Below, piece by piece: positions 18,332 through 23,983 of a DNA stretch of 64,000 nucleotides. Both the position numbers and the translations under genes were made by a program. The notes under the pieces were generated by a model. The model ran no database searches and was not told the origin of the DNA. It was given only the letters and a program-made list of their open reading frames with translations. Source of the stretch: Pedobacter segetis (GTDB taxonomy: Bacteria; Bacteroidota; Bacteroidia; Sphingobacteriales; Sphingobacteriaceae); contig NZ_JAEHFY010000007.1 of assembly GCF_016623585.1 (NCBI RefSeq), forward strand, positions 1 to 64,000. Direction: 5' to 3'. Within the stretch, counting starts at the first letter, position 1. Every line of letters begins with the position of its first letter.

Positions 18332-19447
18332 TTAAATATCCAAATCTTCAAATAAATTCAATTGTCTAAATGTGATGATGTCATTTTCTTCGTTGTAAAA
18401 ATTAGAAAGCGTAACTCCTAAAAGCCTAACTTTTTTTTCTTCTAGATCTAGTTTTTCCAAAAGCTCAACCGCAGTTTCAAAAATGGTTTTTTTGTCTGTT
18501 ATGTAATTTAAAAAAGTATGGCTTCTGGTAATTTGAGAGAAATCGTTAAACTTTACTTTTAGTGTCAAGGTTTTTCCCTCTTTATTTTTAGAGGTCAGCC
18601 GATCGTAAACTATAGAAGATAATTTCTCAAGTTCTTTTTTTAAAACTATTAGATTGTCAATGTCGTTTTCAAATGTATCTTCTGCCCCAATAGATTTTGA
18701 AATCCTGTTCGCATTAACAGGTCGGTCATCAAAACCTCTTACAATTTGATAAAAAAACCTTCCGGTTTTACCAAAGTGCTTTTGCATTTCGTTTTCTGAT
18801 AGTTTCTTTAGATCAGAACCATAAAATAAACCTAGGTTTTTCATTTTAAGGGCGGTTACTTTTCCAACGCCAAAAAATTTCTCTACTGGCAAAGCTTCTA
18901 TAAAAGGAATTATTTTAGAGGGACCAATAAAGGTAAGCCCATCGGGTTTATTCATGTCTGAGGCAATTTTTGCGATAAATTTATTAACTGAAACCCCAGC
19001 GGAAGCAGTCAAATTTAATTCTTTTTTAATAGCCTCTTTAATGGCCTTGGCAATATCAATGGCAGAGCCAATTCCCATTTTATCATCGCTCACATCCAGG
19101 TAAGCTTCATCTAGAGATAAAGGTTCGATTAAATCTGTATAGCGATTAAAAATTTCCCTGATCTTTAGCGAAACTTCTTTATAGGCCTCAAACCGTGGTT
19201 TGGTAAATAATAAATGCGGGCAAAGCTGTAGTGCCGTTTTTGACGACATGGCAGACTTAACCCCAAATTTCCTAGCTTCATAACTTGCCGTTGCAACTAC
19301 ACCTCGTCCGTCTGGCGAACCACCAACAGCCAAGGCTTTACCTCTAAATTCTGGGAAATCCCGTTGTTCTACAGAAGCATAAAAGGCATCCATATCAATA
19401 TGGATTATTTTTCTATTGGGTTTATCTTCAGCAGCGTCTATCATCAA
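18332..19447 (-). CDS. dinB: DNA polymerase IV (Y-family translesion polymerase)
   Basis: This 371-aa error-prone polymerase bypasses DNA lesions. Catalytic carboxylates are in IIHIDMDAFYASVEQ (near residues 14-28) and SLDEAYLDVS (near 104-113). The YEARKFGVKSAMSS finger segment and the helix-hairpin-helix KFFGVGKVTALKM are present. The C-terminus (ITFRQLNLFEDLDI) contains QLNLF, which matches a beta-clamp-binding peptide. It overlaps the DUF6122 gene by 4 bases (ATGA). Confidence 0.94.
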   Translation of the reverse strand: MMIDAAEDKPNRKIIHIDMDAFYASVEQRDFPEFRGKALAVGGSPDGRGVVATASYEARKFGVKSAMSSKTALQLCPHLLFTKPRFEAYKEVSLKIREIFNRYTDLIEPLSLDEAYLDVSDDKMGIGSAIDIAKAIKEAIKKELNLTASAGVSVNKFIAKIASDMNKPDGLTFIGPSKIIPFIEALPVEKFFGVGKVTALKMKNLGLFYGSDLKKLSENEMQKHFGKTGRFFYQIVRGFDDRPVNANRISKSIGAEDTFENDIDNLIVLKKELEKLSSIVYDRLTSKNKEGKTLTLKVKFNDFSQITRSHTFLNYITDKKTIFETAVELLEKLDLEEKKVRLLGVTLSNFYNEENDIITFRQLNLFEDLDI

Positions 19448-19821
19448 AAATTTAAAAAACTAAACAAATCATGGATTTTGGAAGCCATAAAACAATCATG
19501 ACAATGAGAAAAAGTCCAAAAGCAATCTAATAGATCGGTAAAAATGTGCAGCACTAATCCAAGAGCTATTATTTTGATGATTTTTTTAGGATAAAAAAGC
19601 AACAGGACATATAATACGATTGCAAAAAAGGAGTGAAGCGGATGGAAACCGATACTGCACCTATCAGCTTCAAAAATAGGATTTGCTAAAAGATGATCTA
19701 AATCTATCAACATGGTTGATAACAATATTAAATACACTTTAACCCAGTTCTTTCTAAAAAAAGAGTATGCAACAATTGCCGGAAAAATAAAGTGTAGCGA
19801 ATAATGCACCAAAAACTGCAT
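19444..19821 (-). CDS. DUF6122 family membrane protein
   Basis: This 125-aa integral membrane protein has about four hydrophobic segments. It has His/Asp-rich conserved spots (MLIDLDHLLANP, GFHPLHSFFAIV, HIFTDLLDCFW) typical of the LexA-binding/metal-dependent hydrolase-like DUF6122 group. Function is unknown. It is translationally coupled to dinB and is divergent from the B12 locus. Confidence 0.7.
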   Translation of the reverse strand: MQFLVHYSLHFIFPAIVAYSFFRKNWVKVYLILLSTMLIDLDHLLANPIFEADRCSIGFHPLHSFFAIVLYVLLLFYPKKIIKIIALGLVLHIFTDLLDCFWTFSHCHDCFMASKIHDLFSFLNF

Positions 19822-19854: not shown

Positions 19855-19884
19855 ATTGAAATACAAACTTAATTTCTACTTTTG
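19855..19884 (+). promoter_or_regulatory. promoter of the B12 operon
   Basis: The -7 box TACTTTTG (19877-19884) is an exact TAnnTTTG match. An upstream attg at 19855-19858 gives a -33 box at near-standard spacing (18 bp). Transcription would start just before the riboswitch. Confidence 0.65.
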
Positions 19885-19891
19885 CGGGCGT

Positions 19892-20056
19892 TATGGTTCT
19901 CTACTTCGGTAAAGATTAAAAGGGAATAAGGTGTAAATCCTAAACTGTCCCGCAGCTGTAAGCTCTATAACTGTTTTTCATTCTTAAAGTCACTGTTTGC
20001 TATCTGGCAGATGGGAAGGCAGAAAAACAGGGAGTAAGTCAGAATACCTGCCAAAA
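19892..20056 (+). promoter_or_regulatory. cobalamin (adenosylcobalamin-type) riboswitch
   Basis: The conserved elements appear in order: tatggttct, aaagggaataaggtgtaaat, ctgtcccgcagctgtaag, gtcactg (B12-box region), gggaaggcag and agtaagtcagaatacctgcc. It lies directly after the promoter and 110 bp before the TonB-dependent receptor. This is the standard arrangement for repressing B12-uptake genes when the vitamin is abundant. The mechanism (terminator or start-site masking) cannot be fixed by eye. Confidence 0.95.
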
Positions 20057-20166
20057 CACATAATATTCATAGCTTTCGCGGATTGAAGCTTTTGGGTGTA
20101 GATAATCTCTATGTTTTAGAGTATTTCCATTCTATTTTTTTCTCCGTAGGCTTCATATTTTAATTG

Positions 20167-22149
20167 ATGAAAATTAAATATTGTCTATTCTTTTTTAGTT
20201 TTTTACTTGTTTTAACCAGCTTAAATTCTTTTGCCCAAATAGATTCTTTGCAAAAAGTTGAGGAGGTAAAAGTTAAAAGCTCATCAAAAAAAACGAGTTT
20301 AAGGGCAACGCAAACAATAGATTCTGCTTCGTTTTTAAAAACAAGTTCTTACAATGTTGCCGATGCCATCAGAAATTTTGCAGGTGTAAACATTAAAGAT
20401 TATGGCGGAATTGGGGGTTTAAAAACGGTTTCTGTGCGTAGTTTAGGCGCAAACCATACTGGTGTACAAGTTGATGGTATCAATTTAGGGGATACACAAA
20501 CCGGGCAAATAGATTTAGGGAAATTGATGTTGGATAATGTGGAGTCTATTTCGCTTTATTTGGCACAACCCGATGATTTATTGGCCAACGCCCGTTCGTT
20601 TTCATCTGCCAGTTTGATTGTTATCAAAACAAAAAAACCTTTGTTTGATTTGGGCAGAACCAATAAATTAATGCTTAAATATACGGGGGGGGCTTTTGGT
20701 TTGGTTAATCCTGTTATCCAATACGATCAAAAAATTAACAGCAATTGGGCGTTTAACCTAAATACCACGCTGCAAAAGGCAACAGGCGATTATAAATTTA
20801 AAGTGATCGGGGATGGATCTGATACGTTATCTACAAGGAGAAACGCAAAAATAAACGCTTTACAGTTTGATGGCGGACTGAGGGGGAAAATTGGAAAAAC
20901 CGGTTTATTGGAGGTTAGGGCAAATTATTATGATTCTGAAAGAGGTTTGCCAAATGCGGTAATCTTTTATAACCCAACAGGTAGCCAAACCTTATGGGAT
21001 AAGGATTTTTATGCCCAAGCAAAATACAGTCGGGATTTTGGCGCAAAATGGAAAATATTGGCGAGTGGAAAATTCTCCAGAAATTACACTCGGTACAACG
21101 ACCCAGATTATCTGAACCAGAATGGAGAATTGGATAATAGATATACCCAAAAAGAATATTATCAATCGGTTGCAACCACTTACCAACCCATTAAAGATTT
21201 AACATTTAATTACGCTGCCGATTTATTTTTTACTACGCTTTATACCAATCTTTTTCAGTATGCTTACCCTACCAGAACTAGCTTATTGCAGGTTGTTGGA
21301 GGTAAATATCAATTAAAGAAATTCACTTTTGAAGCAAATGTTTTAAGTACTTATATCAAAGAGAAAGTTAAAACAGGTAGAAAATCGCCAGAAAGACTGA
21401 TCTTTAATCCTACTTTTTCATTGGCTTACCAAGCAAACCAGAATTTAACTTTAAGAGCATTTTATAAGGATATTTTTAGGTATCCAACTTTTAACGATTT
21501 GTACTATACCAATTTTGGGAACAGAAAGTTGGATCCAGAAAAAACGAAGCAGTATAACGCGGGCTTTGTTTACAACAAATTTACCACTTCAAAACTCAAT
21601 TGGTTTTCTATCAGTACCGATGTTTATTATAATCAAATCAATGATAAAATTATTGCTTTGCCCAACAAAGATTTATTTATCTGGACAATGTACAACATCG
21701 GGAAAGTAGAAATATTGGGTGTAGATTTTACCAGTAAATTCAATTATCAAATCAATCAAAAAGCAAAAATAGAAGCTAATATCAATTATACCTATCAATC
21801 TGCTTTAGATAAAACCGACCCTACATCATCTGTTTATAACAATCAAATTCCTTATACGCCCCAACATACCATCGCATTTAATGCTGGTTACCAACAAAAA
21901 AGTTGGGGTGTATTTTACAATCAGATCTTCTCTTCTGGCAGGTATTATTTGGGAGAAAACCAGCCACAATATTTTGTGAAAGGTTTTTCGGTTAGCGATG
22001 TATCTATAAATTGTAAAACAACATTATATCATCAACCCATCAGCCTTTCGGCAGAAGTGAACAATATTTTTAACCAGAATTATTCTATTATCAGAAGCTT
22101 CCCAATGCCTGGGACTTCTTTAAGATTAACAATTAAAACAACTATATAA
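20167..22149 (+). CDS. btuB: TonB-dependent cobalamin receptor, BtuB-like
   Basis: This outer-membrane receptor imports B12 using TonB energy. The 660-aa protein has a signal peptide ending near FAQ, a TonB-box-like start (VEEVKVKSS), and a plug domain with SSYNVADAIRNFAGVNIKDYGGIGGLKTVSVRSL and VQVDGINLGD. A beta-barrel follows and ends in an aromatic-rich terminal strand (SLRLTIKTTI). The start is the ATG at 20167 rather than the TTG at 20164. Placement after the cobalamin riboswitch fixes the likely substrate. Confidence 0.9.
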   Translation: MKIKYCLFFFSFLLVLTSLNSFAQIDSLQKVEEVKVKSSSKKTSLRATQTIDSASFLKTSSYNVADAIRNFAGVNIKDYGGIGGLKTVSVRSLGANHTGVQVDGINLGDTQTGQIDLGKLMLDNVESISLYLAQPDDLLANARSFSSASLIVIKTKKPLFDLGRTNKLMLKYTGGAFGLVNPVIQYDQKINSNWAFNLNTTLQKATGDYKFKVIGDGSDTLSTRRNAKINALQFDGGLRGKIGKTGLLEVRANYYDSERGLPNAVIFYNPTGSQTLWDKDFYAQAKYSRDFGAKWKILASGKFSRNYTRYNDPDYLNQNGELDNRYTQKEYYQSVATTYQPIKDLTFNYAADLFFTTLYTNLFQYAYPTRTSLLQVVGGKYQLKKFTFEANVLSTYIKEKVKTGRKSPERLIFNPTFSLAYQANQNLTLRAFYKDIFRYPTFNDLYYTNFGNRKLDPEKTKQYNAGFVYNKFTTSKLNWFSISTDVYYNQINDKIIALPNKDLFIWTMYNIGKVEILGVDFTSKFNYQINQKAKIEANINYTYQSALDKTDPTSSVYNNQIPYTPQHTIAFNAGYQQKSWGVFYNQIFSSGRYYLGENQPQYFVKGFSVSDVSINCKTTLYHQPISLSAEVNNIFNQNYSIIRSFPMPGTSLRLTIKTTI

Positions 22150-22154
22150 CAATC

Positions 22155-23210
22155 ATGAAAACAAACAAAACCATTTTTAAATTATTAGCTTTTGCCATTG
22201 CGGCAAGCACCATCTTTAGCTGTAAAAAAGATGAAAATACAGCATTACCACCCGTAAGAGCTGGTTTATATATTTTGAACGAGGGCGGTTTCCAATCAAA
22301 CAACGCCAGTTTAAGCTATTATAATCTGGATACCAAAACAACAACAGCAAATTACTTTGCTCAAAAAAATAAGCGAGGCTTGGGAGATACGGGAAACGAC
22401 ATAAAAGTATATGGCTCTAAAATGTACATCGTTGTAAGCACTTCTAACACTTTAGAGGTTGTAAACCCCAAAACCTCAGAGAGCATCAAGCAGATCGGTT
22501 TTACCAACAAAGGTGTTGGTAGGCTTCCCAGAAACATTGTTTTCAATAAAAATAAAGCCTTTGTTTCTTCTTACGACGGGACGGTTGCAGTGATAGATAC
22601 CTCCAGTTTGGCTGTAGAAAAATTTATTGCAGTAGGCAGAAACCCAGAACAAATGGCCATTGCAAATAACAAACTTTATGTGGCAAATTCTGGTGGTTTA
22701 GATCCCGTTTTTGATAATACAATTTCTGTTATAGATTTGAATAGCTTGGTTGAGGTTAAAAAAATCACTACCGTTTCAAACCCAACCGAATTAGTTTCTG
22801 ATGCCTCTAGCGGAAAAATTTATATAAGAAGCCCTGGCGATTATGACCAACAATTGGCATCATTAACCATTATTGATAGCAAGACAGATGCGGTTATTTC
22901 TAATAAACCTTTTGAAGGAAAACTGATGAAAATTGTAGATAATATTGGTTATTTTGTATTTAACAATGGGATAAAATCTTATGATTTAAAATCTGATGCG
23001 GTTTTAAAGAGTAATATCATAACAGACGGAACTACTTTTTCATACGCTTATGGCTTTAATTATGACGCAGTTAATAAAGATTTTTTTGTTTGCGATGCAA
23101 AAAATTTTATTGGCAACGGGGAGGTTTCTTGCATAGGTTTAGATGGAAAATTAAAATATAAAATTATTGCCGGTGTAAACCCTAATAATGTAATATTTTT
23201 AAACAAATAA
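22155..23210 (+). CDS. beta-propeller lipoprotein, BtuG-like B12-binding protein
   Basis: The 351-aa protein starts with a lipoprotein signal (lipobox FSC, Cys23) followed by an acidic KKDEN stretch, like the surface-export signals of Bacteroidota lipoproteins. The rest consists of YncE-like propeller repeats (for example KVYGSKMYIVVSTSNTLEVV, KAFVSSYDGTVAVIDTSSL, KLYVANSGG). In Bacteroides, BtuG is a surface beta-propeller lipoprotein that captures B12 and hands it to BtuB. This gene sits 5 bp after the receptor under the same riboswitch, so the same role is a strong inference. Confidence 0.8.
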   Translation: MKTNKTIFKLLAFAIAASTIFSCKKDENTALPPVRAGLYILNEGGFQSNNASLSYYNLDTKTTTANYFAQKNKRGLGDTGNDIKVYGSKMYIVVSTSNTLEVVNPKTSESIKQIGFTNKGVGRLPRNIVFNKNKAFVSSYDGTVAVIDTSSLAVEKFIAVGRNPEQMAIANNKLYVANSGGLDPVFDNTISVIDLNSLVEVKKITTVSNPTELVSDASSGKIYIRSPGDYDQQLASLTIIDSKTDAVISNKPFEGKLMKIVDNIGYFVFNNGIKSYDLKSDAVLKSNIITDGTTFSYAYGFNYDAVNKDFFVCDAKNFIGNGEVSCIGLDGKLKYKIIAGVNPNNVIFLNK

Positions 23211-23263
23211 GAGTTTTTTTATTACCTAAAAGAATTGCTATTTTTACGCATCAATAAAAAATT

Positions 23264-23842
23264 ATGTCCTTAAAAAATTTAAACGTTAGAAGTTGGGTTA
23301 TTTTTTTCATCATCCTTGCGGCTACCGCTACCAGATTTATCCCCTTAACAGGAAATGTAGCTTGGTTTAATTTTACGCCAGTTGGTGCCATTGCGTTATT
23401 TGCAGGTACCTATTTTCAAAATAGGTGGAAGGCATATTTAGCACCCTTAATGCTTTTGTTTATCAGTGATATTTTTATCAACCATGCTTACACAGGTACC
23501 TGGAATTTGTTTTACGGAGGTTTCCAATGGATTTATTTAAGTTTCGCCATTATGGTATTTATTGGTTCACTGATTAAGAAAGTAAACGTAGGTTCGGTAT
23601 TTTTGGCTTCAATTGCCGGGGTTTTTGTTCATTGGATCGTTACCGATATTGAACCTTGGTTAGCTGGTACCCTATACAATAAAGACATTACTGGTTATTA
23701 CCAATCTTTAGTTGCTGCTATCCCTTTCGAAAGAAATTTATTGTTAGGTAACTTGGTTTTTGGTGCTTTACTATATGGGGCTTTTGAATTGGCAAAATCT
23801 AAATTTGGCATTTTAAAAACAAATAAAGAATTGGCTTATTAA
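23264..23842 (+). CDS. DUF6580 membrane protein in the B12 operon
   Basis: This 192-aa protein has about five or six membrane helices and the conserved openings ATATRFIPLTGNVAWFNFTP and GAIALFAGTYFQNRW. The compact fold resembles an S-component of an ECF-type importer. It is 53 bp after the BtuG-like gene and is the last gene in the riboswitch-controlled set. A role in moving cobalamin or a precursor across the inner membrane is an inference; no BtuCDF genes are nearby. Confidence 0.75.
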   Translation: MSLKNLNVRSWVIFFIILAATATRFIPLTGNVAWFNFTPVGAIALFAGTYFQNRWKAYLAPLMLLFISDIFINHAYTGTWNLFYGGFQWIYLSFAIMVFIGSLIKKVNVGSVFLASIAGVFVHWIVTDIEPWLAGTLYNKDITGYYQSLVAAIPFERNLLLGNLVFGALLYGAFELAKSKFGILKTNKELAY

Positions 23843-23863: not shown

Positions 23864-23983
23864 GAGAGGCTGTCTCAAAAATCTCAATTGTGATATTGAG
23901 TAGAGTCGAAATGTGTTATAACACAATCTAAAATGACTTCGAATCCGCTCCTGCCCGACAAAGTTGATAATTTGAGACAGTCC
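23864..23983. repeat. 120-bp element with terminal inverted repeats (MITE-like)
   Basis: The ends are ggctgtctcaaa (23868-23879) and tttgagacagtcc (23971-23983), an inverted repeat of ten perfect bases. The interior includes a short Asn/Ser-poor non-coding stretch (gagtagagtcgaaatgtg). It lies just after the B12 operon and could act as its transcription terminator. Elements with these gacag/ctgtc ends occur in many copies in related genomes, which is recalled knowledge and was not checked. Confidence 0.6.

Follow-up and report, generated by a model that had tools for sequence, protein, structure and literature searches.

How vitamin B12 crosses the inner membrane of a bacterium without a recognisable BtuC permease is the question raised by a compact operon of Pedobacter segetis, located in the 64,000-nucleotide stretch of contig NZ_JAEHFY010000007.1 analyzed here (positions 1 to 64,000; hereafter the window). 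In this operon, a cobalamin riboswitch precedes the genes for a BtuB-type receptor, a BtuG-type surface lipoprotein and a small membrane protein of the DUF6580 family (PF20221). In our opinion, DUF6580 is likely a solitary inner-membrane cobamide carrier and a non-orthologous replacement of BtuCDF across much of the phylum Bacteroidota; its substrate, the direction of transport and the lack of an energy source are what we infer. A sequence-only reading of the window had suggested an inner-membrane carrier of cobalamin or of a precursor in place of BtuCDF, and the carrier part of that suggestion is supported by the nearly complementary distribution of DUF6580 and FecCD proteins, by the linkage of DUF6580 to riboswitches and BtuB, and by a predicted S-component fold.

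Organization of the B12-uptake operon

The operon consists of the following elements:

19877..20069, plus strand: cobalamin riboswitch aptamer RF00174 (106.1 bits, E 1.5e-25)
20167..22149, plus strand: BtuB1-type TonB-dependent cobalamin receptor (Pfam; 8blw_A, E 5.6e-135)
22155..23210, plus strand: BtuG-type surface lipoprotein (8blw_B, E 5.3e-67; PF16819 (DUF5074), 59.3 bits)
23264..23842, plus strand: DUF6580 (PF20221, 178.9 bits), a membrane protein with a predicted S-component fold

The three co-directional genes, separated by 5 nt (BtuB/BtuG) and 53 nt (BtuG/DUF6580), form a single B12-uptake operon together with the riboswitch. The riboswitch match, which is the only RF00174 match found across the whole genome, covers positions 1-189 of the 189-position model and far exceeds its gathering score of 31.5 bits, so that a cobalamin riboswitch indeed heads the operon, as had been claimed.

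The receptor reading frame is open from 20164 (TTG) to 22149, with the ATG at 20167 as the likelier start, and comprises a TonB receptor domain (PF00593) and a plug domain (PF07715). Its closest solved relative is BtuB1 of Bacteroides thetaiotaomicron (8blw_A), and every one of the 10 PDB sequences matched is either a B12 receptor or a TonB receptor from the BtuBG series. The score for the NCBIfam BtuB equivalog TIGR01779 stays far below the cut-off (85.5 vs 599.7 bits); that model was built for the E. coli-type BtuB, which is distant from the BtuB1 type. The lipoprotein is closest to the beta-propeller protein BtuG1, the partner of BtuB1 (8blw_B), over residues 35-351, and its N-terminus, as read off the sequence, carries the lipobox TIFS|C with Cys23 followed by KKDEN; a lipobox cysteine and a lipoprotein export signal are described as BtuG features (PMC6143338). 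Both the receptor and the surface lipoprotein with its export signal had thus been recognised correctly. What has to be corrected is the view that BtuG is known from gut Bacteroides, as BtuG, with 114 homologues, had already been presented as characteristic of Bacteroidetes at the level of the phylum (PMC6143338).

As in the B. thetaiotaomicron BtuB1-BtuG1 locus, BtuG adjoins BtuB behind a riboswitch. The two loci differ in that the window lipoprotein has 351 amino acids (aa), compared with 663 aa in the BtuG1 structure, where the additional length corresponds to a BtuH domain (PMC10404256); the window BtuG lacks this fused domain, and DUF6580 comes next. The BtuB and BtuG of the window are ordinary, such pairs having already been described for Bacteroidetes (PMC6143338, PMC10404256), and the novelty of the locus rests with DUF6580.

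Cobamide requirement of the host

The genome assembly (3.84 Mb, 72 contigs, completeness 99.84%) encodes three proteins with B12-binding-domain matches, which we read as a putative MetH, a mutase fused to MeaB and a free-standing domain next to an enoyl-CoA hydratase, as well as a PduO-type adenosyltransferase. No match to CobS was found in this genome. As B12 enzymes are present and no CobS was found, the organism is a B12 user that probably depends on the import of complete cobamides. For the same reason the precursor part of the sequence-only reading is disfavoured, since CobS was not found to complete, e.g., cobinamide. In the wider group, 0.6% of Bacteroidetes were predicted to make cobamides and 96% to have cobamide-dependent enzymes (PMC6461909), and many Gram-negative B12 auxotrophs were reported to possess BtuB and to lack BtuCDF (PMC6072759).

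The genome contains no match to FecCD (PF01032, the family of BtuC), and therefore no recognisable BtuC. The EcfT/CbiQ family (PF02361) was likewise without a match, EcfA-type ATPases not having been searched for. Since neither FecCD nor EcfT was found, DUF6580 would act alone.

Distribution of DUF6580 and FecCD proteins

DUF6580, FecCD (strong matches: E < 1e-50) and the riboswitch were compared in 296 genomes sampled across Bacteroidota (phylum set; one sub-cut-off DUF6580 match was dropped) and in 151 genomes of the order, all belonging to one family, which is also that of the window (order set). The window protein itself scores far above the PF20221 cut-off of 27 bits. Within the phylum set, DUF6580 was found above the cut-off in 119 genomes, the riboswitch in 288, and FecCD in 210 (strong in 192). 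Both DUF6580 and strong FecCD occurred in 18 genomes, DUF6580 only in 101, strong FecCD only in 174 and neither in 3, compared with about 62 of the 296 expected to have neither under independence, all these counts being raw, i.e., without a correction for phylogeny. The picture is the same among the 288 riboswitch genomes (18 with both, 99 with DUF6580 only, 169 with FecCD only, and 2 with neither).

The complementarity can also be seen at the level of families, 24 of which have DUF6580, while the remaining 26 have FecCD without DUF6580. In the mixed families f14 and f23, the members devoid of DUF6580 have strong FecCD (1/1 and 6/6, respectively), and the sole genome of the phylum set in family f1 that lacks DUF6580 has FecCD and no riboswitch (G001). 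In the order set, DUF6580 and the riboswitch were each found in 123 genomes, 122 of them in common, and G136, the only genome with a riboswitch and no DUF6580, has five matches to FecCD.

As a separate observation, 27 of the 28 order genomes without DUF6580 have no detected riboswitch and 22 of the 28 have FecCD; genera g2 and g12 are represented here among the matches listed, and they may have lost the control of B12 uptake by the riboswitch, or uptake itself.

Linkage of DUF6580 to riboswitches and B12 receptors

Linkage was defined as a distance within 10 kb of a riboswitch among the matches listed, which made 106 of the 126 DUF6580 genes in the order assessable, and 60 outside the family (61 more were left out). 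In the window's family, 95 of the 106 genes are linked to a riboswitch, and in 90 of these 95 cases the riboswitch lies upstream on the same strand, mostly at 2.2-2.7 or 3.4-3.8 kb. Outside the family, the share drops to 18/60; in four of these 18 cases (G267, G345, G387 and G397) the gene is placed directly behind or between riboswitches. It had been stated beforehand that the occurrence of DUF6580 mainly outside B12 loci would speak against a role in B12 uptake: this is not what is seen within the family, and it is partly what is seen beyond it. A low value is not unusual, since FecCD, taken as a yardstick, was itself near a riboswitch in just 7/50 cases among the matches listed, in a rough count that includes siderophore permeases.

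In three of the four genomes mentioned above (G267, contig C8; G345, contig C320; G387, contig C6), DUF6580 is flanked by two riboswitches on the same strand with scant space for another gene, i.e., it is a single gene under its own switch.

Further comparison covered 80 named loci, mostly from Mucilaginibacter or from bacteria closely related to that of the window. The gene immediately 5' of DUF6580 matched BtuB or BtuG in 72/80 loci, with the order BtuB-BtuG-DUF6580 in 38, BtuB-DUF6580 in 31, three loci cut before BtuG, and eight with neither. In 60 of the 80 loci, a motif resembling the B12 box stands ahead of the first gene, and an Rfam riboswitch was found in eight of the nine loci that were scanned, L165 being the exception. 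The BtuB encoded without BtuG was of the E. coli type in both cases tested (3rgm, E 3.9e-39 and 6.5e-35), and DUF6580 is therefore a partner of two kinds of receptors. Elsewhere in the phylum, we read a TonB receptor beside DUF6580 in two loci of family f34 and a BtuG-like frame near it in one locus of f22.

Predicted fold of DUF6580

AlphaFold2 models were built for the window protein (65 sequences; mean predicted local distance difference test (pLDDT) 90.8, predicted template modelling score (pTM) 0.88) and for a second, 42% identical family member, L173 (47 sequences, mean pLDDT 91.9, pTM 0.87). In VIA-align, the top match of both was B12-bound BtuM: 8ovv for the window model (Z 13.5, 164 residues, root-mean-square deviation (rmsd) 3.8), and for the L173 model Z 13.9 over 167 residues (rmsd 3.8), in the latter case tied with the S-components 4huq_S (13.6) and 7nnt_C (13.5). 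All rows down to Z 9.0 and 9.5, respectively, were S-components or their Co/Ni relatives, and the next rows followed at 6.6 and 6.5. Foldseek also returned the S-component fold (probability up to 1.00). DUF6580 is thus predicted, on the basis of these models, to have the S-component fold of energy-coupling factor (ECF) transporters. CbrT is a B12-specific S-component; it was not among the VIA-align rows, an absence which does not exclude likeness.

This prediction has its weak sides. A Z of about 13 for helical bundles borders the meaningful range of VIA-align, while the best Foldseek E-values were weak (0.13 and 0.035), its first row was a folate S-component, and BtuM ranked third and seventh. 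Moreover, a 65-sequence profile run against PDB sequences did not retrieve a single S-component even when E-values as high as 10 were allowed, no BtuM profile having been built.

In 40 sequences from across the phylum, R24, N36, P61, D69, Y91, G101, Y138, G144, P154 and G172 are fully conserved. The invariant polar residues among them (R24, N36, D69, Y91 and Y138) lie in the half that we take to be periplasmic by analogy with S-components. Conserved columns as a whole are not enriched there (20/106 vs 12/86, p 0.44), and among the 40 sequences no Cys or His is invariant and thus available as a general cobalt ligand, both of which speak against the proposed carrier role.

As for candidate cobalt ligands, the best Cys column was 148 (24/40) and His28 was present in 31/40; neither residue occurs in the window protein, which contains no cysteine at all, and a conserved ligand was accordingly rejected. 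His28 is situated in the first periplasmic loop and Cys148 ahead of the last helix, and it is possible that they are lineage-specific cobalt ligands.

Such proteins are presumably named 'putative transport protein' at NCBI. DUF6580, PF20221 and IPR046487 were not mentioned, nor was any role for the family found, in the literature searched (most subscription journals and all preprints being outside it). A term search of the main text of an S-component survey (PMC11109136) gave neither PF20221 nor 'DUF'.

Proposed function and alternative explanations

In the proposed pathway, scarcity of cobalamin would lead the riboswitch to permit expression of the operon, surface BtuG would capture a cobamide and pass it to BtuB, and the latter would deliver it to the periplasm. 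DUF6580 would then bind the whole cobamide from the periplasm, topple in the membrane and release it inside, where adenosylation by the PduO-type enzyme and binding by MetH and the mutase would trap it. A more far-reaching version, for which we see about equal grounds for belief and disbelief, is that DUF6580 constitutes a second family, beside BtuM, of ATP-free solitary importers of the S-component type for B12. According to it, DUF6580 would be the main inner-membrane gate for B12 in ~40% (119/296) of the sampled Bacteroidota species, would work without the cysteine chemistry of BtuM, and would accumulate its cargo because adenosylation, B12 enzymes and perhaps the signal-less BtuF-like proteins, as BtuF proteins reused for a cytoplasmic B12 sink, retain it inside.

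The genome encodes two proteins of the BtuF family (PF01497), a finding that sits uneasily with a replacement of BtuCDF. Neither L185 (C11:229077-229862) nor L186 (C1:6533-7123) has an evident signal peptide; the matches of L186 are structures of E. coli BtuF (E about 3e-13), and those of L185 mostly heme-binding proteins. They are possibly cytoplasmic cobamide- or metal-binding proteins, and a cytoplasmic B12 sink would, speculatively, fit.

The predicted fold also allows DUF6580 to be the S-component of a true, ATP-driven ECF transporter with its EcfT/EcfA module encoded elsewhere, and PF02361 is indeed present in 8 of the 119 DUF6580 genomes of the phylum set. It should be stressed, however, that PF02361 was not found in the remaining 111, nor in the genome of the window's organism, so the module would have to be unrecognisable, and that its presence in eight genomes is no proof of coupling, because the same family covers CbiQ of cobalt transporters. 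ECF-dependent transport is disfavoured on this account and appears very improbable.

The cargo of DUF6580 could also be another one under riboswitch control, i.e., cobalt, cobinamide or a lower-ligand base (as in CblT). Structural matches include a Ni/Co S-component (4m58, Z 9.0 and 9.5) and CbiM (5x3x_M, Z 9.2), and B12-riboswitch control of cobalt uptake was inferred earlier (PMC2667541). On the other hand, BtuM outscores these Co/Ni chains by about 4 Z units, DUF6580 complements the BtuC family in distribution, and with no CobS found, this genome offers no way to turn cobalt, cobinamide or a base into a cobamide; the predominance of cobamide users over predicted makers in Bacteroidetes (PMC6461909) points the same way. 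With CobS not found, such cargoes are disfavoured, and we consider this explanation highly unlikely.

There remain observations that count against a general role of DUF6580 in cobamide import. When the 18 weak FecCD matches (17 of them in DUF6580 genomes) are added, the phylum set splits into 35 genomes with both, 84 with DUF6580 only, 175 with FecCD only and 2 with neither; as noted, phylogeny is not corrected for, and a few deep evolutionary events may carry much of the complementarity. One genome of family f24 (G282) has the riboswitch and neither DUF6580 nor FecCD, while three DUF6580 genomes (G262, G313 and G074) have no detected riboswitch. In the order set, FecCD occurs also in 26 of the 123 DUF6580 genomes, and in G053 it lies 9.3 kb from the riboswitch with DUF6580 elsewhere; because of these two findings, some species may have both systems. 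The low linkage outside the family belongs here, too, as do the eight of 80 loci without BtuB or BtuG directly upstream (one at a contig end), among which the Pfam domains of the neighbours in L141, L131 and L165 indicate fucosidases, a metallopeptidase, and an aspartokinase-like kinase with a decarboxylase, respectively, and the five loci of family f23 that we read, whose neighbours are not B12 genes.

Part of this evidence (the 18/60 linkage, the raw counts, the f23 neighbours and the FecCD co-occurrence in the order) would suit a DUF6580 of unrelated membrane function that only shares its transcript with BtuB in Sphingobacteriaceae-like genera, its complementarity with FecCD reflecting a few deep splits, but this seems to us a very poor prospect, as DUF6580 follows two types of BtuB and stands between two riboswitches in other families, only 2 of the 288 riboswitch genomes lack both DUF6580 and FecCD, and riboswitch linkage of FecCD is no tighter among the matches listed.

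If DUF6580 is the inner-membrane cobamide carrier, one named family would answer the question of B12 import for a large share of Bacteroidota, in which nearly all members are predicted to depend on cobamides and almost none to produce them (PMC6461909). It would also place beside BtuM another family of solitary S-components, one that binds its ligand by a different chemistry, in which the ATP-free movement of a large vitamin could be studied, and annotation could recognise a B12 importer in species seemingly without one.

Promoter and surroundings of the operon

The following features flank the operon:

19856..19884, plus strand: promoter-like TTGA-N17-TACTTTTG (letters of the sequence; suggestive only)
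19444-19821, minus strand: small DUF6122 protein (PF19617, Pfam), divergent from the riboswitch operon

The first of these fits the TTG/TAnnTTTG (-33/-7) pattern, which we take to be that of Bacteroidota promoters. The earlier claim of a strong promoter holds as far as the presence of a pattern-like site is concerned; its strength is not established, because the window contains 8 instances of the pattern, with 4.08 expected (3/100 shuffles reach 8). A sigma-70 promoter scan of the operon gave no excess of sites (13 vs 17.2 in shuffles). No expression platform is claimed for the riboswitch, since the region 20060-20180 folds barely better than its shuffles (z -1.71).

On the 3' side of DUF6580, two facing matches, TTTGAGACAGCC (minus strand, 23868-23879) and TTTGAGACAGTC (plus strand, 23971-23982), are separated by 91 bases. 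They may represent the two termini of a short insertion-sequence remnant or of a miniature inverted-repeat transposable element (MITE), with chance as another possibility, at least two such matches being present in 14/100 shuffles.

Comparison with known importers

DUF6580 shares with BtuCDF its proposed task and position in the pathway, and differs from it in consisting of a single small protein (192 aa); no FecCD/BtuC match was found in the genome. With the ECF S-components FolT, ThiT, BioY and RibU it has in common the predicted fold, the difference being that EcfT was not found in the genome of the window's organism.

The nearest parallel is BtuM, a solitary B12 transporter found mostly in Proteobacteria (PMC6072759; PDB 8ovv, 8c7p), which works without an ECF module in E. 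coli, a species that has no such module itself, and for which toppling in the membrane was proposed (PMC6072759). DUF6580 resembles BtuM in the predicted S-component fold, the similar size (about 22 kDa), the association with BtuB, and hosts without BtuCDF in which no ECF module was found. In contrast, it has no counterpart of the invariant BtuM cysteine, which ligates cobalt and is required for function (PMC6072759), and its sequence shows no detectable similarity to an S-component of known structure; furthermore, it belongs to Bacteroidota, where it is often accompanied by BtuG and a cobalamin riboswitch. DUF6580 therefore probably works like BtuM, yet in our judgement forms a separate family.

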